In this document: one piece after another, positions 2,844 through 60,874 of the stretch | Numbering within the stretch: position 1 is the stretch's first letter | Layout of the letters: every line of letters begins with the position of its first letter | NCBI RefSeq assembly: GCF_014486695.1 | Contig: NZ_JACTAB010000005.1 | Coordinates: 1-64,000, forward strand | Length of the DNA stretch: 64,000 nt | Direction: 5' to 3' | DNA from: Flavobacterium buctense | Lineage (GTDB): Bacteria > Bacteroidota > Bacteroidia > Flavobacteriales > Flavobacteriaceae | Notes under the pieces: model-generated | What the model saw: the letters and a program-made list of their open reading frames with translations, nothing else | Told to the model about the DNA's origin: nothing | The model's database searches: none | Position numbers and translations under genes: made by a program

Positions 2844-3041
2844 ATGCCTAAAATGAAAACAAAATCCAGTGCTAAGAAGCGATTCAAAGTAACTGGCTCT
2901 GGAAAAATCAAGAGAAAACACGCTTTTAAAAGTCACATCCTGACTAAAAAATCTAAAAAGCGTAAATTGGCTTTAACTCACTCTGCGTTGGTTCACAAAA
3001 CAGATGAGAAAAGTATCAAACAACAATTAAGAATTATCTAA
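2844..3041 (+). CDS. rpmI: 50S ribosomal protein L35
   Basis: Small, very basic 65-residue protein of the large subunit, beginning [14 protein letters not shown] and containing the family's lysine/arginine-rich core with [11 protein letters not shown]. Length is typical. It follows infC by 25 bp in the conserved infC-rpmI-rplT order. Its stop codon is followed directly by a 7-bp periodic array (3043-3077). Confidence 0.97.
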
Positions 3042-3042
3042 T

Positions 3043-3077
3043 TTAGTGATTAGTAATTAGTGACTAGTAATTAGTCG
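3043..3077 (+). repeat. Five-unit 7-bp array, TTAGTNA type
   Basis: Five consecutive heptamers read ttagtga, ttagtaa, ttagtga, ctagtaa and ttagtcg, starting 1 nt after the rpmI stop codon. It is a one-sided member of the short-period intergenic arrays seen elsewhere in this window (10921-11010, 31431-31592, 37396-37472). Confidence 0.75.
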
Positions 3078-3117
3078 TTAAGCTTTTCAATAAATAAAAT
3101 TCTTTAGGTTAAAAAAT

Positions 3118-29983: not shown

Positions 29984-30006
29984 TCAGTAGCAGTCGCAGT
30001 TTTCAG
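29984..30006. repeat. Short CAGTNN array after the Sua5 gene
   Basis: CAGT recurs at 29984, 29990 and 29996, then CAGA at 30003, beginning 4 nt after the Sua5 stop codon. Similar to the ACTG array at 18636-18669 on the other strand. Confidence 0.45.
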
Positions 30007-30016
30007 AACAAAAAGC

Positions 30017-31438
30017 ATGAATTATACCAAAGCATTAGACAATAAAATCTTCGAAATTATTTCAAAAGCTTCTCAAGAACTTAACTTGGAGAGTTATGTG
30101 ATTGGTGGCTTTGTACGTGACTTTTTATTGCAACGCGATTTCAAAAAAGATATTGATATCGTGGCTGTGGGTTCCGGGATTGATTTGGCGCTGAAAGTTT
30201 CCGAATTGTTACCACACAAACCGAAAGTACAAGTTTTCAAAAACTATGGCACGGCGATGTTGCGTTATAAAGAAATCGATATTGAATTTGTAGGTGCGAG
30301 AAAAGAAAGTTATACCCAAGATAGTCGGAATCCTGTAGTAGAAAACGGCACTTTAGAAGACGACCAAAACCGCCGTGATTTTACGATTAATGCCTTGGCT
30401 TTTTCTTTGAATCCGAATAATTACGGTCAATTGATTGACCCTTTCAATGGTTTAACTGATTTGGAAAACAAACTCATCAAAACACCTTTGAATCCTGATA
30501 TTACCTATTCAGATGATCCTTTGCGCATGATGCGTGCCATTCGCTTTGCGACGCAATTAAACTTCACCATAGAAGAAAAATCTTTGCAAGCCATTGCCGA
30601 TAATAAAGACCGTATCAAAATTATTTCTGGCGAGCGAATTGTGGACGAATTGAACAAAATTCTCGAAACCCCGAAACCGTCCATTGGTTTTTTACATTTA
30701 TACAAAACCGGCTTACTCGACATCATTTTGCCCGAATTGACCGCACTCAACAACGTAGAAGAAATCGAAGGGCATACGCATAAAAACAACTTCTATCACA
30801 CGTTGGAAGTAGTAGATAATATTTGCCCGAATACCGATGATGTTTGGTTGCGTTGGGCAGCATTGTTGCACGATATTGGCAAAGCGCCAACGAAACGTTT
30901 CAATAAAAAACAAGGCTGGACATTCCACGGACATGAATTTTTAGGTGGCAAAATGGTGAAGAAAATCTTTGAAAGATTGCACATGCCGTTGAACCAAAAA
31001 ATGAAATTCGTGCAAAAAATGGTGATGCTGAGTTCACGCCCAATTGTCTTGTCTGAAGACATCGTAACCGATTCGGCTGTACGTCGTCTGGTATTTGATG
31101 CTGGAGAAGATGTGGACAATTTGATGACGCTTTGTGAAGCCGATATCACTACTAAGAATCCAACGAAATTCAAAAAATACCACAACAATTTTGATATTGT
31201 TCGTCGAAAAATTATTGAAGTCGAAGAACGCGATCATGTGCGTCAATTTCAACCGCCCATTAGTGGTGAAGAAATCATGGTTCTGTTCAACTTACAACCT
31301 TCAAGAGAAATTGGGGTTTTAAAAGAAGCGGTAAAAGAAGCTATTCTAGAAGGAGAAATTCCGAATGAATACCAAGCCGCGTATAATTTTGTTTTGGCGA
31401 AAGCCGAGAAAATGGGTTTGAAGAGAGTTATTGAGTAG
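30017..31438 (+). CDS. CCA-adding tRNA nucleotidyltransferase with HD domain
   Basis: 473 residues. The class II nucleotidyltransferase head has [23 protein letters not shown] (GG plus DxD), then [13 protein letters not shown] and [16 protein letters not shown], as in CCA-adding and poly(A) polymerases. The second half is an HD phosphohydrolase domain ([13 protein letters not shown]). The single enzyme likely adds or repairs CCA ends, which matters because the tRNA-Glu genes here do not encode CCA. Its stop codon lies inside the first unit of a CTGAGTNN array. Confidence 0.92.
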
Positions 31439-31592
31439 CTGAGTGGCTGAGTGGCTGAGCATGACCATTTTCTTAAAAAATTAATAAAATATTATAATTT
31501 GTTTTTAGTCGAAAAGACAAAGTCAACATAAATTTGCAACTCAAAAACTAAAAAGACTCAGTTACTCAGCCACTCAGTAACTCAGCGACTCA
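31431..31592. repeat. CTGAGTNN octamer palindrome around the ctaA promoter
   Basis: The left arm at 31431-31460 is TTGAGTAG, CTGAGTGG, CTGAGTGG, CTGAGC. The right arm at 31556-31592 has four ACTCAGNN units plus ACTCA, the reverse complement of the same unit with variable dinucleotides TT, CC, TA and CG. About 95 bp of AT-rich sequence separates the arms and includes a TAAATTTG promoter box at 31529-31536, so the right arm would be transcribed in the ctaA leader. Confidence 0.85.
31529..31536 (+). promoter_or_regulatory. TAAATTTG box upstream of ctaA
   Basis: Perfect TAnnTTTG, 62 nt before the ctaA ATG. No TTG at 17-23 bp upstream; the nearest, at 31499-31501, is 27 bp away. Confidence 0.4.
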
Positions 31593-31598
31593 AAAAAT

Positions 31599-37475: not shown

Positions 37476-37781
37476 TTATTCCCATTTATTATTTTTCTCC
37501 TTCTCCATCAACTCTTTAATCTTTTTATCTTCCCAATTTTTGCCCAAAATCATTGTAGGTACAAAAACTGAAAATCCGTGAGCCACTAAACCTATGCCCC
37601 AAAATAAAGGCGTGGTAAAGTTTTTCCAGTTTAAAAAACCTTCGGAAGAATTTTGAGTGTTTACGATTAACAGTATGATGTTAATCAACACATAAACCGC
37701 AGCATGCGAGTAAAAACCTTTAATTCGCTTCACTCTTTTGGCGGCTTCCTGGTATTTGATTTCGTCTAAATTTTCCATCAT
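37476..37781 (-). CDS. 2TM domain protein (third of three)
   Basis: 101 residues. Opens MMENLDEIKYQEAAKRVKRIKGFYSHAAVYVLINIILL, two transmembrane helices with a tight loop (PLFWGIGLVAHG), then NWEDKKIKELMEKE. This is the 2TM domain family, found in Bacteroidetes near LytTR systems. The start codon overlaps the preceding gene's stop (TAATG). Function unknown; likely a membrane component or sensor with the adjacent kinase. Confidence 0.88.
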   Translation of the reverse strand: MMENLDEIKYQEAAKRVKRIKGFYSHAAVYVLINIILLIVNTQNSSEGFLNWKNFTTPLFWGIGLVAHGFSVFVPTMILGKNWEDKKIKELMEKEKNNKWE

Positions 37782-38086
37782 TATTCAAATTTATTTCTTT
37801 TATTTTCTTTTTCCATGTATTCTCTTATCTTTTTTTCTTCCCAATTATAACCTAAAAATGATAATTTATCAAAAACATTCAATGCATGTATTATTACACC
37901 TATTCCCCAAAAAAAAGGAACATAAAATGCGTGCCAAATAGTTTCACCTTCATCAATTTTTTGAGTCTTTTTTACCACAATAAATAAACTAATTAACACA
38001 TATACAGCTAAGTGAGAATAAAATCCTTTAATTTTTTGTACTCTCTTTACTGCTTCTTGGTATTTTATTTCGTCTAAATTTTCCAT
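37781..38086 (-). CDS. 2TM domain protein (second of three)
   Basis: 101 residues, strongly similar to the next gene: MENLDEIKYQEAVKRVQKIKGFYSHLAVYVLISLFI, FWGIGVIIHALNVF, then NWEEKKIREYMEKEN. Two hydrophobic helices and charged ends. Recent tandem duplication is suggested by the shared N-termini. Two bases from the upstream 2TM gene. Confidence 0.88.
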   Translation of the reverse strand: MENLDEIKYQEAVKRVQKIKGFYSHLAVYVLISLFIVVKKTQKIDEGETIWHAFYVPFFWGIGVIIHALNVFDKLSFLGYNWEEKKIREYMEKENKRNKFE

Positions 38087-38088
38087 AA

Positions 38089-38388
38089 CTATTCGTATTT
38101 AGATTTATTATTTTCTTCTTCCATGTATTCTCTGATCTTTTTTTCTTCCCATTCTTGGTTAAAGAATGGCATCCAATTGAACACTTTCATCGCGTGGAAA
38201 AACAATCCAATTCCCCAACCCATCATCGACCAAAGAAACCAAAGATATTGCGGTGTGTATTTTAAATTAATAAAGATTAAAATGGCCATTACTAAGATAT
38301 AAGAAGCCAAGTGACTATAAAATCCTTTGATTTGTTCTACTTGTTTTTTGGCACGCTGGTATTTTTCGTAGTCGTTATTTGTTTCCAT
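38089..38388 (-). CDS. 2TM domain protein (first of three)
   Basis: 99 residues from ATG 38388 (METNNDYEKYQRAKKQVEQ). An upstream frame to 38439 would add a stretch overlapping the kinase gene end and an octamer array, so it is less likely. Contains IKGFYSHLASYILVMAILIFINL, SMMGWGIGLFFHAMKVF and EWEEKKIREYMEEEN. More divergent from the other two copies, and closest in sequence to the 2TM tail of the kinase. Confidence 0.85.
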   Translation of the reverse strand: METNNDYEKYQRAKKQVEQIKGFYSHLASYILVMAILIFINLKYTPQYLWFLWSMMGWGIGLFFHAMKVFNWMPFFNQEWEEKKIREYMEEENNKSKYE

Positions 38389-38401
38389 GTTTTTTTTTAG
38401 T

Positions 38402-38421
38402 TGCTGAGTGACTGAGTTGCT
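38402..38421. repeat. Short CTGAGTNN array
   Basis: TGCTGAGTGACTGAGTTGCT contains two CTGAGT units 8 bp apart; no inverted partner nearby. Lies in the gap before the first 2TM start codon. Confidence 0.55.
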
Positions 38422-38429
38422 ACTTCTAA

Positions 38430-39767
38430 TCAACTCCATTTGTTGCTTTGACTATTTTCTTTATTCAAAATCTCTTGAATTTTCTTTTCTTCCCATGATT
38501 TTCCGTAACCGAAAGTTTCTAGGGCATGGAATGTCAATCCCATTCCCCAACCTAACATTGGGAACCAAAACCATTGAAATCCTCCGCTTTTTAAGTTGAT
38601 AAAGATTAAAAACGGAATCACGCAACAGTATGAAATTAAGTTGCCGTAAAATCCTTTGAGTTTTTCTACTCGTTCTTTGGCTTTCATGTAAGCCATGTTT
38701 TCATTATAAATATTTTTTGTTTCCATGATGACAATTTGTTTGGTTAAAATCGGAATTTTTACTTTGAAAGCGGTTTCGGTTTGGTCTACCAAAACTTTTC
38801 GGGCCGAAATCAAAGCATAACGATTGACGATGTTCTGCAGTCCAACGCCTTTTCGGTCTTGCAAGACTTCTTTTTTCTGTAAATTATTCTCAACGATTAA
38901 GTAATTATTTTCAATATAAATTTTAATGTGCAATGGTTTTTGCTCGCTAGCCACATTGTGCTTAATGGTGTTTTCCAATAAAAGTTGTAACGATAGCGGT
39001 ACCACTTTAGCATTCGGATTCTCAAATTCACTTGGCAATTCGTAACTGATGCTGTTTTCAAAACGCATTTTGAGCAAATTCATATACGTTTTGGCGAAAG
39101 CCAATTCCTCTTCTACCGAAACCAGTTCTTTGTCTTTTTGTTCCAATACATAACGGTAGATTTTAGACAAAGAAGTCGTAAACTTTTGTGCATTATCGGG
39201 GTTTTCTTCTATCAATGAACTCAGTACATTCAAGCTATTGAACAAGAAATGTGGGTCGATTTGGTTTTTTAAACTTTCAAACTGTGCCGATGCAGTGCCG
39301 GCGATAACCTTTTGTTCTTTGACTTTGTTTTCGGCGTAAGCTTTGTAAAAATAAAACGCATGAAAAGCCAGTGTAACAAAGAAGGTAATGATAATGGATA
39401 CCAAATAATTCGAAAGCTGTTCCTTACTTAAAAAATCCGTCAATGAAACACCTTCGACAATCACATCTTCAAAAACTCTCAATAAAAAAATTACCGCAAT
39501 TGAAACTAAAAAAGAAAATGTAAAGCCAAGAAATATTCTTTTTGGGGTAAACCTATCAGCCTTAAAAACTTGATCCAAATAGATAAAAATGGCAGCATTA
39601 GCAAAGTACAACGAGAAACCATAAAGCATGGTGTATCCAAAGTTGACCAACAAAGCATGATTAAACTCAACTTTATTTCCAACAATCAGCCTAATCAATA
39701 ACAACACAAAAAAAATAGTGATGGAAATGATTATCGCTCTTGGGATTTCTTTGATTAATTGTTTCAT
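38430..39767 (-). CDS. LytS-type sensor histidine kinase fused to a 2TM domain
   Basis: 445 residues. Membrane helices occupy residues about 10-145. The His_kinase domain follows with NQIDPHFLFNSLN (phospho-acceptor H173), LLLENTIKHN as the ATP-binding N box, and GVGLQNIVNRY as the G box. The chain continues without stop from about residue 348 (METKN...) into KERVEKLKGFYGNLISYC, GWGMGLTFHALETF and WEEKKIQEILNKE, a complete 2TM domain. M348 looks like the start of a formerly separate 2TM gene, so this is a fusion. Cognate regulator is LytTR at 36632. Confidence 0.88.
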   Translation of the reverse strand: MKQLIKEIPRAIIISITIFFVLLLIRLIVGNKVEFNHALLVNFGYTMLYGFSLYFANAAIFIYLDQVFKADRFTPKRIFLGFTFSFLVSIAVIFLLRVFEDVIVEGVSLTDFLSKEQLSNYLVSIIITFFVTLAFHAFYFYKAYAENKVKEQKVIAGTASAQFESLKNQIDPHFLFNSLNVLSSLIEENPDNAQKFTTSLSKIYRYVLEQKDKELVSVEEELAFAKTYMNLLKMRFENSISYELPSEFENPNAKVVPLSLQLLLENTIKHNVASEQKPLHIKIYIENNYLIVENNLQKKEVLQDRKGVGLQNIVNRYALISARKVLVDQTETAFKVKIPILTKQIVIMETKNIYNENMAYMKAKERVEKLKGFYGNLISYCCVIPFLIFINLKSGGFQWFWFPMLGWGMGLTFHALETFGYGKSWEEKKIQEILNKENSQSNKWS

Positions 39768-39781
39768 TACTTACTTTTTTT

Positions 39782-39856
39782 AGGTTCTGAGGTTCTGAGG
39801 CACTAAGGTACTGAGGTTTTTACTTAGAACCTAAGAGCCTCAGCACCTTAGTACCT
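39782..39856. repeat. AGGNNCTR octamer palindrome 2
   Basis: Left units AGGTTCTG, AGGTTCTG, AGGCACTA, AGGTACTG, AGG (39782-39816); loop TTTTTA; right units CTTAGAAC, CTAAGAGC, CTCAGCAC, CTTAGTAC, CT (39823-39856). Fills the gap between the kinase and the upstream gene. Confidence 0.9.
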
Positions 39857-40609: not shown

Positions 40610-40677
40610 AGGTTCTGAGGTTCTGAGGAGCTAAGGTTCTAAGGCTTTTCCCTTAGTACCTCAGCGCCTTAGCGCCT
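40610..40677. repeat. AGGNNCTR octamer palindrome 3
   Basis: Left units AGGTTCTG, AGGTTCTG, AGGAGCTA, AGGTTCTA, AGG (40610-40644); loop CTTTTC; right CCTTAGTAC, CTCAGCGC, CTTAGCGC, CT, ending 1 nt before the receptor's stop codon. Confidence 0.9.
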
Positions 40678-43526: not shown

Positions 43527-44063
43527 ATGATTTATAAATTCAGAGCAATTCTCGATGCCGAAGAAGATGTTTTCAGAGATATTGCGATTCAGGAAGACGA
43601 TACTTTAGAAGATTTACACAATGCTATTGTCAACGCTTTTGGTTTTGACGGTTTGGAAGTGGCTTCCTTTTACACCTGTGATGACCAATGGAATCAGGAA
43701 GAAGAAATCCCGATGTTTGACACCGGTGATGTTGCCGGCGAACAAAAAATCATGAGTGATTATCCATTGAATCAATTATTAGGTGAAGACCAAACCAAAA
43801 TCATTTACGTTTACGACTTCATCAATATGTGGACATTCCTGGTAGAATTGGCCGCAGTCGAAGACGAAGAAATTGGTATAACTTATCCAAACCTATTATT
43901 CTCTCACGGTGTATTACCGGCTATTGCTCCGGAAAAAGAATTCGAAGCCGAAAACGAAGATTTCTACTCCGAGTTTGAAGATGATTTAGATGAAGACGAT
44001 TTAGATATGTTTGGCGGCGATGACAGCTTTGAGGATTTTGGGTTTGAGGAGAATTGGAATTAG
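43527..44063 (+). CDS. Plasmid pRiA4b ORF-3-like protein
   Basis: 178 residues, strongly acidic C-terminus. The N-terminal 130 residues (MIYKFRAILDAEEDVFRDIAI, LEDLHNAIVNAFGFDG, IIYVYDFINMWTFLVEL) match the pRiA4b ORF-3 / IS1096 TnpR-like family, a widespread domain of unknown function. Aspartate/glutamate repeats form the last 45 residues. No transposon features are nearby, so the family name should not be read as mobility here. Confidence 0.8.
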   Translation: MIYKFRAILDAEEDVFRDIAIQEDDTLEDLHNAIVNAFGFDGLEVASFYTCDDQWNQEEEIPMFDTGDVAGEQKIMSDYPLNQLLGEDQTKIIYVYDFINMWTFLVELAAVEDEEIGITYPNLLFSHGVLPAIAPEKEFEAENEDFYSEFEDDLDEDDLDMFGGDDSFEDFGFEENWN

Positions 44064-44068
44064 TATTT

Positions 44069-44103
44069 AGGTCCTGAGGAACTAAGATTCTGAGGTGCTA
44101 AGG
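44069..44103 (+). repeat. AGGNNCTR array, left arm enclosing the four-helix-bundle gene
   Basis: Units AGGTCCTG, AGGAACTA, AGATTCTG, AGGTGCTA, AGG. The matching inverted arm lies at 44519-44558, beyond the four-helix-bundle gene. Confidence 0.88.
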
Positions 44104-44156
44104 CTTGTAATTATAAGATTTTTATTATTTTTAATTAAATTTTAAATCAATTAAAA

Positions 44157-44516
44157 ATGAGCAACTTTAGAAATCTACAAGTATGGCAGAAATCCATGAC
44201 ACTAACTACCAATATTTATTTTTCAACCAATAACTTTCCTAAAGAAGAAATTTTTGGATTAACATCACAAATCAGACGAAGCGCCATATCGATTCCAAGT
44301 AATATAGCCGAAGGCTTTGGAAGAGATAGCAACAAAGAATATCTTAGATTTTTAAATGTCTCAATAGCCTCATTATTTGAATTGCAAACACAATTAGAGA
44401 TTGGGAAAAATAAAGAATACTTAACCGAACAAGAATTTAACAAAATATACGAAGACAGTCGAGAACTTGAAAGAATGTTAGTCTCATTCATCAACAAAAT
44501 TAAAGAAAGAGACTAA
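44157..44516 (+). CDS. Four-helix-bundle protein (IVP/S23-like)
   Basis: 119 residues, beginning MSNFRNLQVWQKSMTL, with FGLTSQIRRSAISIPSNIAEGFGRDSNKEYLRFLNVSIASLFELQTQLEIG. This is the classic four-helix-bundle family of 23S rRNA intervening-sequence proteins (S23/IVP), also related to Avd of diversity-generating retroelements. No rRNA or reverse transcriptase is near. The gene sits exactly between inverted octamer arms (44069-44103 and 44519-44558), the hairpin-loop position its relatives hold in rRNA. The stop lies 2 bp from the right arm. Confidence 0.93.
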   Translation: MSNFRNLQVWQKSMTLTTNIYFSTNNFPKEEIFGLTSQIRRSAISIPSNIAEGFGRDSNKEYLRFLNVSIASLFELQTQLEIGKNKEYLTEQEFNKIYEDSRELERMLVSFINKIKERD

Positions 44517-44518
44517 AA

Positions 44519-44558
44519 CCTTAGAACCTCTGCGCCTCAGCACCTTAGCACCTTAGAC
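44519..44558 (-). repeat. CCTYAGNN array, right arm enclosing the four-helix-bundle gene
   Basis: CCTTAGAAC, CTCTGCGC, CTCAGCAC, CTTAGCAC, CTTAGACC: the inverted counterpart of 44069-44103 in the same octamer register, ending 5 nt before the next ATG. Confidence 0.88.
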
Positions 44559-44563
44559 CAAAA

Positions 44564-45622
44564 ATGATCAACCTATTCAACGCCCACATCGAGTCCTTAT
44601 CCATCCACCGAGTTGGAAACAAAAGCCGCAACGAAGCCATTTTCCTTTCAGAACAACCTTATGGATTGAATGACGAAATTGTTCCTCTGTTAAAAGAATA
44701 TTTCTTTAAGCCTTTCCGTGAAAAGGAAGAAAATTATTTTCAGTTTGCCCATGATGTCGATTTGGAATACAATGACATGTTCAACTTGGCGACTGAGATT
44801 TTCACCAATCCGAATGATACCCATGAAATTTCTAAAAAGATAACCAAACACTTATTCGAGCAATCCAACCATCCGCATATTAAGAATGGGGAAGTTTATG
44901 TTGCCCATTTGACCAATGTTTCAATCGACAATAATGTAGTCGATGCGATTGGTGTTTTTAAAAGCGAGATCAAGTCTGATTTTATGCAGTTTGAGGAGAA
45001 AGGCAGTACTTTGGAAATGATTTTGCAACAAGGGATTAACTTGAATAAATTAGACAAAGGTTGTTTAATTTTCAATTATAAAAAAGAAGAAGGTTACAAG
45101 ATTTTAACCATTGACAGCAACCGTTATGACGCGCGTTATTGGTTGGAGCATTTCCTTTCGGTAGATGCTTTTCAGGATGAAAATTTCTACACCAAAAAGT
45201 ATTTGAAATTCTGCCAAGGCTTTGCCAAAGATGTAGTACTTCCGGCAGAAGACAAGAAAGAAGAAGTGATGTTTATGAACCGTTCGGTAAATTATTTTGC
45301 TAAAAATGACGAATTCGAAGAGAGTAAATTCTTAAACGAAGTATTAGACAATCCTGATTTGATTCCGGAATTCAAAAACTACAAAGTAGACAAAGGTGAA
45401 AAATACAGTATAGAAGACATTACCAATTTCCCGATTGCCAATGCTGCCGTAACCGACGCACGAAAATCAATCAAAAACGTGATTAATTTAGACACTAATA
45501 TTCAAATTAAACTTGATTTCATCAACCCGGAAAGTGCTGAGAAATATGTAGAAAAAGGTTGGGACGAAGAAAAACAAATGTATTATTACTTGGTTTATTT
45601 CAACAAAGAACAAAAAAGTTAG
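44564..45622 (+). CDS. Nucleoid-associated protein (NdpA/YejK family)
   Basis: 352 residues, the 37-kDa nucleoid-associated family. Conserved segments include HIESLSIHRVGNKSRNEAIFLSEQP, GEVYVAHLTN, KGCLIFNYKKEEGYKILTIDSNRYDARYW and QIKLDFINPESAEKYVEKGWDEE. Binds the nucleoid or single-stranded nucleic acid in E. coli; precise role unclear. Located between the octamer right arm and a terminator at 45656. Confidence 0.88.
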   Translation: MINLFNAHIESLSIHRVGNKSRNEAIFLSEQPYGLNDEIVPLLKEYFFKPFREKEENYFQFAHDVDLEYNDMFNLATEIFTNPNDTHEISKKITKHLFEQSNHPHIKNGEVYVAHLTNVSIDNNVVDAIGVFKSEIKSDFMQFEEKGSTLEMILQQGINLNKLDKGCLIFNYKKEEGYKILTIDSNRYDARYWLEHFLSVDAFQDENFYTKKYLKFCQGFAKDVVLPAEDKKEEVMFMNRSVNYFAKNDEFEESKFLNEVLDNPDLIPEFKNYKVDKGEKYSIEDITNFPIANAAVTDARKSIKNVINLDTNIQIKLDFINPESAEKYVEKGWDEEKQMYYYLVYFNKEQKS

Positions 45623-60559: not shown

Positions 60560-60712
60560 TTTCTTGTAATTTAATTGTAATTAATAATAAAATATTTAGT
60601 TAAAAAAGAAAAACCTCCCACAATTAAACATAATCACTTTGGTTTTAACTAATAAAACAAAAATCCGAGACACTGAACTCTTGTTCTATAAAACTAATTT
60701 ACAACTAATCTG

Positions 60713-60784
60713 TAGCCCGTAGGGGAATCGAACCCCTCTTACCAGGATGAAAACCTGGCGTCCTAACCGATAGACGAACGGGCC
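60713..60784 (-). tRNA. tRNA-Glu (TTC), copy 2
   Basis: A 72-nt cloverleaf, identical to the copy at 60803-60874. Acceptor stem GGCCCGT/ACGGGCT with a G1-U72 pair and discriminator A; anticodon loop TT-TTC-AT in a CCAGG/CCTGG stem; T arm AGGGG-TTCGATT-CCCCT. CCA is not encoded. Confidence 0.96.
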
Positions 60785-60802
60785 ATTAAGCCTAAAATAT
60801 TG

Positions 60803-60874
60803 TAGCCCGTAGGGGAATCGAACCCCTCTTACCAGGATGAAAACCTGGCGTCCTAACCGATAGACGAACGGGCC
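60803..60874 (-). tRNA. tRNA-Glu (TTC), copy 1
   Basis: Identical to the second copy, 18 bp apart. It is first in the transcribed direction and lies 23 nt downstream of a good promoter box. Both copies need the CCA-adding enzyme. Confidence 0.96.

Follow-up and report, generated by a model that had tools for sequence, protein, structure and literature searches.

Intervening sequences (IVSs) in the 23S rRNA genes of Coxiella and other bacteria carry an open reading frame (ORF) for an S23p/IVP protein within inverted flanks, and the function of these proteins is not known according to the available part of PMC4990558. In the Coxiella IVS, tandem GACAGAT heptamers lie ahead of the S23 ORF, and the X. 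campestris relative of the protein is a homopentameric toroid (PMC4990558). Inverted repeat pairs tied to RAYTs, the REPINs, are dispersed together with singlets, and a distinct gene stands among repeats of its own type (PMC3116915). Intergenic heptamer arrays occur in Nostoc and in Xanthomonas (GGGAATC), two genomes of which hold 70 and 75 convergent pairs (PMC4692102). Arrays of another heptamer, TAACTGA, occur in Beggiatoaceae, cyanobacteria and Bacteroidetes, with no transfer mechanism evident from the available portion of PMC4679880. For short heptamer arrays such as these, which lie between genes in several groups of bacteria, neither a partner nor a maker is known from the same portions of these two papers. 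Recognition by counting repeats exists in TRAP, where 11 subunits sit on 11 (G/U)AG repeats in RNA (PMC4027176).

The locus described here belongs to a window of 64,000 nucleotides of Flavobacterium buctense (the whole stretch of DNA that was analysed), on contig 46 of a genome of 2.92 Mb. It consists of a 119-residue ORF enclosed by two inverted arms built on the unit AGGNNCTR (Table 1). The ORF matched the PF05635 profile with E of 2.3e-40 (137.5 bits against a cut-off of 33.8), scored 134 against a cut-off of 24 for TIGR02436 and also matched NF008911. Profile matches above curated cut-offs, together with four helices and 2GSC as the nearest structure, place it in the S23/IVP family; the gene's closest named relatives come from Flavobacterium and Flavobacteriaceae. 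An earlier note on this DNA had described inverted arms that enclose the gene and little else, with the gene stop 2 bp from the right arm. Direct reading of the sequence confirmed each of these points, giving cores at exact 8-nt spacing that start at 44069, 44077, 44085, 44093 and 44101 in the left arm and at 44519, 44527, 44535, 44543 and 44551 in the right. The element fills the space between genes for PRiA4_ORF3 (43527-44063) and NA37 (44564-45622). The count of five cores, and the other units found on other family members, are absent from that note.

This arrangement resembles each of the described systems in part. As in the 23S rRNA IVSs, a gene of the same protein family has inverted terminal sequences around it. 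In contrast to them, the element lies between protein genes rather than inside a 23S rRNA gene, with no Rfam match to any RNA family between positions 30000 and 48000 of the window; its units are octamers, and arrays of the same type are dispersed genome-wide. As with REPINs, inverted pairs are dispersed in intergenic DNA, but the gene beside the repeats encodes a PF05635 protein, small, four-helical and without known catalytic activity, instead of a cognate Y1 tyrosine transposase, and the arms are short-period arrays, not single palindromes. The heptamer repeats of cyanobacteria, Xanthomonas and Beggiatoa (PMC4692102, PMC4679880) share with it a short intergenic period (7 nt), inverted pairs in the case of Xanthomonas and an occurrence in several phyla; the available parts of those papers propose no S23/IVP partner and mention neither octamers nor a five-core count.

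Table 1 The IVP element and other short-period arrays in the window
Feature	Positions	Strand	Evidence
Left arm, five AG-cores (AGG AGG AGA AGG AGG), 8-nt spacing, unit AGGNNCTR	44069..44103	+	sequence
IVP/S23 four-helix-bundle gene, 119 aa	44157..44516	+	PF05635, TIGR02436, NF008911; model pLDDT 95.8
Right arm, five CCT cores, 8-nt spacing, left arm inverted	44519..44553	-	sequence
Gene-less inverted AGG array pair, short T-rich loop	37396..37472	.	RNA fold -45.3 kcal/mol, z -8.2
Gene-less inverted AGG array pair	39782..39856	.	RNA fold z -7.6
Gene-less inverted AGG array pair, right arm only four cores	40610..40677	.	RNA fold z -4.3
Facing arrays of other octamer type (AGTNNCTG), ~100 nt apart, no IVP gene between	31434..31594	.	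sequence
Single AGTNNCTR array	38399..38422	+	pattern search
Heptamer array, ATTAGTG type, five AGT cores	3037..3087	+	array scan

The three gene-less pairs of facing AGG arms that the earlier note had listed are real. Two further repeats of the window are of other kinds: a tandem of two identical tRNA-Glu genes repeating every 90 bp (60712-60874), and repeats ~308 to 344 bp apart (37492-38681) that look like tandem-duplicated small genes.

Arms of this kind are common to the IVP family. All seven IVP genes of the F. buctense genome have inverted short-period flanks when read by eye, and their units differ: TTAGACNN, AGGNNCTR, GTCTTAAT-like, TTGATAA, GTTTGGA, AATTTTA and ATATTAA-like. When 1720 genes (2.04 Mb) were ranked by flank score, six of the seven took ranks 4, 7, 11, 23, 33 and 96; the seventh (L004), an open frame with no stop, was missed by the ORF caller and is unscored. 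The wider sample comprised 156 IVP loci, namely these 7, 69 from genus genomes, which are the best-scoring loci and not a random draw, and 80 named loci (the best 80 of 549) that span Flavobacteriaceae to Ignavibacteria, Desulfobacteraceae, Planctomycetes, Marinimicrobia, Cloacimonadota and others. One locus is in the sample twice (L043 = L076), and two loci had flanks too short to score. Inverted arms with z>3, in a shuffle that moves 2-mers and preserves dinucleotides only roughly, flanked the IVP gene at 124 of the other 154 loci, against 21 of the 375 other genes that these loci contain (Fisher 3e-68); removing the duplicate left 122 of 153, and 131 or 134 of the 154 had z>2, depending on the shuffle run. 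The best period of the flanks was 8 in 90 loci, 7 in 51, 9 in 7 and another value in 6, so that 141 of 154 have a period of 8 or 7. Grouping by shared neighbour genes gave 46 sites, with a median z>2 in 40 and <=2 in six. The enrichment of arms around family members relative to neighbouring genes, proposed as a check in the earlier note, is present, and it extends to loci outside rRNA.

The same layout extends to plasmids and to rRNA. An IVP-like match was found in 42 plasmid records, 17 of which were read by eye, 15 of them cyanobacterial; the short tandem heptamer repeats of cyanobacteria are called STRRs. Most of the 17 loci have inverted heptamer-like arms, e.g. GGGAGTA, GGGAACA, AAAAGGG or GGGTGTA, the exceptions being L318 and L330, with same-strand arrays, and L331, with none. 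At locus L333, from Azospirillum lipoferum, the IVP gene lies inside the LSU rRNA (Rfam, 1698.8 bits) and its arms are GACRGAN heptamers. Taken with the GACAGAT heptamers of Coxiella, this makes the classic 23S rRNA IVS look like a special case of the arm-IVP-arm architecture. Two side observations concern gene content. The cyanobacterial plasmids L318, L323 and L328 have IVP genes inside CRISPR-Cas runs, ordered cas6-IVP-cas4 twice and cas10-IVP-cmr3 once. At G000 contig 22:110877-111326, a gene that we take from its sequence to be GatB/YqeY-like also lies between inverted octamer arrays, of TTAGACTT type.

The earlier note had gone further and read the octamer palindrome as a carrier hairpin with the gene as cargo in its loop. 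What stands of this is that arms enclose the family in and outside rRNA; a ready-made carrier is unsupported. Many unit types exist besides the octamer, and which of them a locus carries goes with the protein, as detailed below. Facing arms agree no better than chance: across facing AGG arms, the variable NN positions match in 10 of 43 cases (null 21%, p 0.38) and the R position in 19 of 43 (null 51%). Selection for a perfect stem was therefore rejected, as the variable positions match no more than chance, and it is the units, not the stem, that look selected. This fits recognition of units rather than stem selection, though RNA folding scores well for all three gene-less pairs (Table 1).

Orthologous sites bear on the same question. 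NA37-flanking loci were examined in 30 of the 60 genomes with NA37, and 17 of the 30 are without an intact ortholog. The earlier note had suggested looking for empty hairpins at such loci; none of the 17 has an empty AGG hairpin between PRiA4_ORF3 and NA37 (the site in G046 reads N). Decaying or diverged IVPs occupy the site in three genomes, as a remnant in G001 (L335), a frameshifted gene in G044 (L345) and a distant IVP-like frame in G059 (L338), and remnants resembling arms are present in G055 and G024. Arrays of other types were found in G021 (L360), with a full inverted pair of AGAAAAT-like heptamers, and as half of such an arrangement in G040, G048 and G013. The rest are other palindromes or plain spacers, with the N stretch in G046 and a bare 31-nt spacer in G050. 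We consider it unlikely, on this evidence, that IVP elements insert in the loops of pre-existing palindromic stems, as in 23S rRNA helices, with the paired stem being what matters and the RNA cut by RNase III. RNase III does cut the rRNA IVSs, which sit in helices (PMC4990558), L333 lies within LSU rRNA, and the gene-less pairs fold well; this account nevertheless has against it the chance-level match of facing arms, the dependence of unit type on the protein and the lack of an empty AGG hairpin at the 17 loci, and it leaves the five-core count unexplained.

Short-period arrays also stand apart from IVP genes. Across 2.04 Mb of the F. buctense genome, intergenic arrays peak at period 7 (79) and period 8 (44), and a single run of N is included in each count. 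Between 3 and 15, the remaining non-harmonic periods gave 2 to 11 arrays each, and the harmonics 14 and 16 gave many. A run of N, possibly unassembled sequence, occupies G000 contig 22:287557-290778. An inverted partner lies <=100 nt away for 47 of 173 intergenic arrays, and 126 are without one. The pattern AGGNNCTR x3 had 38 matches in the whole genome, and its reversed control had 0.

The presence of these arrays in a genome is associated with the presence of the window's IVP gene. The comparison covered 61 genus genomes, 18 with an ortholog of the window IVP (at least 63% identity) and 43 without. AGGNNCTR x3 was present in 12 of the 18 and 3 of the 43 (187 against 4 overlapping matches, p 3.4e-6), AGGNNCAR x3 in 11 and 2 (198 against 4, p 4.5e-6) and AGTNNCTR, with a weaker association, in 9 and 5 (54 against 12, p 0.0023); these p values, and those for arm type below, take no account of relatedness, and they rest on orthologs of the window IVP, not on the other IVPs of those genomes. 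Reversed controls gave 0 matches for AGGNNCTR and 13 for AGTNNCTR (G002, G014, G016, G027); the control of AGGNNCAR gave 9, from a single genome. Among the three AGGNNCTR-positive genomes without an intact ortholog, G044 retains a 52-aa piece of it with 75% identity.

Array type also followed the arms of the ortholog for two of three unit types. The most AGGNNCTR matches (38, 36 and 31) were in genomes whose ortholog has AGGNNCTR arms (p 0.004), and the five genomes with an AGGNNCAR-armed ortholog had 24, 43, 2, 43 and 7 AGGNNCAR matches (p 0.016). The third type, AGTNNCTR, does not fit this link: its matches are highest in G009 (25) and G000 (16), both with an AGG-armed ortholog, and the six genomes whose ortholog arms are AGTNNCTR-like have 1, 5, 1, 0, 0 and 0; several of these arms read AGATTCTA and are unmatched by the AGTNNCTR pattern. 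G015 and G053 have 29 and 20 AGGNNCTR matches despite ortholog arms of another type.

Unit type tracks the IVP protein at unrelated sites, with a modest effect that is strongest above 60% identity. Protein identity correlated with the 4-mer similarity of the arms in pairs from different sites (r 0.199, p 0.0005, 156 loci), across the 46 sites (Mantel r 0.215, p 0.0005) and across 24 genus sites (r 0.206, p 0.016), with a mean r of 0.213 over 60 random one-per-site draws. Control DNA 300-900 nt away was uncorrelated with the protein (r -0.07, -0.12 and -0.01 for the 156 loci, 46 sites and 24 genus sites). Orthologs at the NA37 site carry AGGNNCTR, AGGNNCAR, AGTNNCTR-like or AGTNNCAR-like arms, both arms of a locus being mostly alike. 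In the wider sample, too, the arms of one locus resembled each other in type more than they did the arms of other loci, and this held inside one site group of 57 loci, where arm similarity was 0.551 within a locus and 0.355 between loci (p 2e-4). The protein columns that track unit type best are, by computation, the candidates E105, Y62, E103, Q77 and R106. Purifying selection acts on the orthologs, whose median dN/dS is 0.069 across the 79 pairs passing filters.

The arrays also share a core number. Exactly five in-register AG cores were found in 30 of 37 AGG arrays in the 2.04 Mb of the F. buctense genome, with four in 3 arrays and more in 4. Over all intergenic arrays there, chains of two to eight exact cores at period 7 numbered 22, 27, 42, 47, 5, 4 and 1, and chains of two to six at period 8 numbered 18, 25, 17, 26 and 1, a cliff after five; none of the control periods 5, 6, 9 and 10 had a peak at five cores. 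At period-8 IVP loci, five AG cores were present in 42 of 88 left arms and 48 of 88 right arms, mostly orthologs of one site (41 and 47 of 87 with the duplicate locus dropped). When each site is counted once, five is no more than the mode (12 of 40 arms); among period-7 arms, four cores and five cores are equally frequent (9 of 32 each). In the per-genome match lists, two overlapping matches of AGGNNCTR correspond to four full units, and arrays with one, two and three matches numbered 5, 15 and 1 in G000, 6, 11 and 1 in G009 and 6, 7 and 0 in G053. Hand counts gave, for AGGNNCTR in G015, 10 arrays with one match, 2 with two and one with fifteen, and, for AGGNNCAR in G052, 14, 7 and 2 arrays with one, two and three matches plus one with nine. 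A 400-kb sample of G042, small as it is, had no clear five-core peak. Five cores are common, yet long expansions exist.

Strand order is fixed as well. The G-rich strand comes first in 11 of 11 inverted AGG pairs, the window IVP locus included, in 39 of 44 sites showing a difference and in 42 of 45 entries from the F. buctense genome, where both arms of some hairpins were entered separately. This order, the five-core peak and cliff in the same genome, the tracking of protein by unit type and the presence of such flanks at only 21 of 375 other genes make it extremely improbable that the arrays are microsatellite-like intergenic clutter, produced by chance or neutral slippage, that small genes happen to occupy. 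Slippage would yield long, perfect arrays, and some are of this kind; heptamer excess has also been linked to polymerase slippage as a proposal (PMC4692102). Chance or slippage alone was rejected on the five-core cliff and the flank contrast (124/154 against 21/375).

Spread of the arrays by Y1/RAYT-type transposases or another mobile element, with IVP genes hitch-hiking, has a precedent in the REPINs as inverted repeat pairs tied to RAYTs (PMC3116915), and two Y1_Tnp genes are present in the F. buctense genome. We nonetheless rate its probability as very low: it gives no account of unit type following the IVP protein, and Y1_Tnp is absent from G004, G053 and G054 despite 36, 20 and 1 AGGNNCTR and 29, 2 and 10 AGGNNCAR matches. 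A Y1 transposase as a general need was rejected on the lack of a Y1_Tnp match in these three genomes, in a search that covered Y1_Tnp only. Two of the three best-flanked non-IVP genes of the F. buctense genome themselves encode Y1-type transposases and are flanked by palindromes (G000 contig 11:105603-106064 and contig 33:63459-64025, one flank reading ATCCCGTTAGGGAT); they offer a REP-RAYT-like comparator. A partnership with an RVT_1 reverse transcriptase was likewise rejected for this genome, which has no PF00078 match and in this differs from the diversity-generating retroelements, with their reverse transcriptase and Avd (4DWL, 8UB7, 8UBE).

The window protein was modelled confidently as a four-helix bundle (Table 1). 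Its closest structures are 2GSC (XCC0516) and 2RLD, of five chains each, followed by Avd alone and in the ribonucleoproteins of diversity-generating retroelements. By analogy with these relatives, the window protein may form a pentamer. The solved pentamer 2GSC comes from a Xanthomonas species carrying GGGAATC arrays; GGGAATC was not found in 9 genomes of the phylum of G061.

We judge it moderately probable that S23/IVP genes and short-period arrays are one two-part genomic system, in which a predicted five-subunit ring recognises arrays of about five cores. The IVP protein would assemble into the ring, which would recognise about five short G-rich cores, 7 or 8 nt apart, with one core per subunit, both in the arrays that flank the gene encoding it and in those dispersed elsewhere. 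The case for such recognition is mainly the match between subunit and core numbers, five cores in 30 of 37 AGG arrays being set beside a pentamer that is known from relatives of the window protein and predicted for that protein itself. The ligand would most likely be RNA rather than single-stranded DNA, because Avd, a structural relative of IVP, is part of an RNA-protein complex and because the IVSs of rRNA genes undergo transcription. Binding may keep or spread the array population, as has been proposed for RAYTs and REPINs. If the prediction holds, the ring would share with TRAP one AG-containing core per subunit; the two proteins are unrelated, and binding is proven for TRAP (PMC4027176) and predicted for IVP.

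TRAP-like regulators of such logic also lend themselves to a different account, namely that the host has domesticated IVP as an RNA-binding regulator, for which the arrays serve as operator or processing sites on mRNA and are not selfish repeats. Strong purifying selection and a site kept in many Flavobacterium species agree with it. Against it, the IVP gene is patchily present and decays at the orthologous site, single genomes hold several IVPs whose units differ, and arrays adjoin genes of all kinds; we hold it to be quite improbable. A broader form of the two-part system is possible though doubtful: pentameric IVP rings may count to five, and by binding five 7- or 8-nt units of its cognate type each may keep and spread arrays across phyla. 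A single ring-bound selfish class, able to do without a transposase or reverse transcriptase of its own, would then take in the 23S rRNA IVS hairpins along with the heptamers and octamers repeated in Bacteroidota, cyanobacteria, Xanthomonas and Beggiatoa.

A word search of the main texts of PMC4692102 and PMC4679880 found no mention of S23 or four-helix proteins, and a search of the open-licence literature, with subscription papers outside its scope, found no paper linking S23/IVP with dispersed arrays. The data presented here tie S23/IVP to heptamer and octamer arrays and yield sharp predictions: a cognate unit per clade, about five cores and fixed polarity. If the proposed system is true, the 23S rRNA intervening sequences would gain a wider family, a share of the spacer repeats in many genomes would be explained, and the known repeat-protein systems would be joined by one in which the partner protein is a ring with no enzyme activity known for it.
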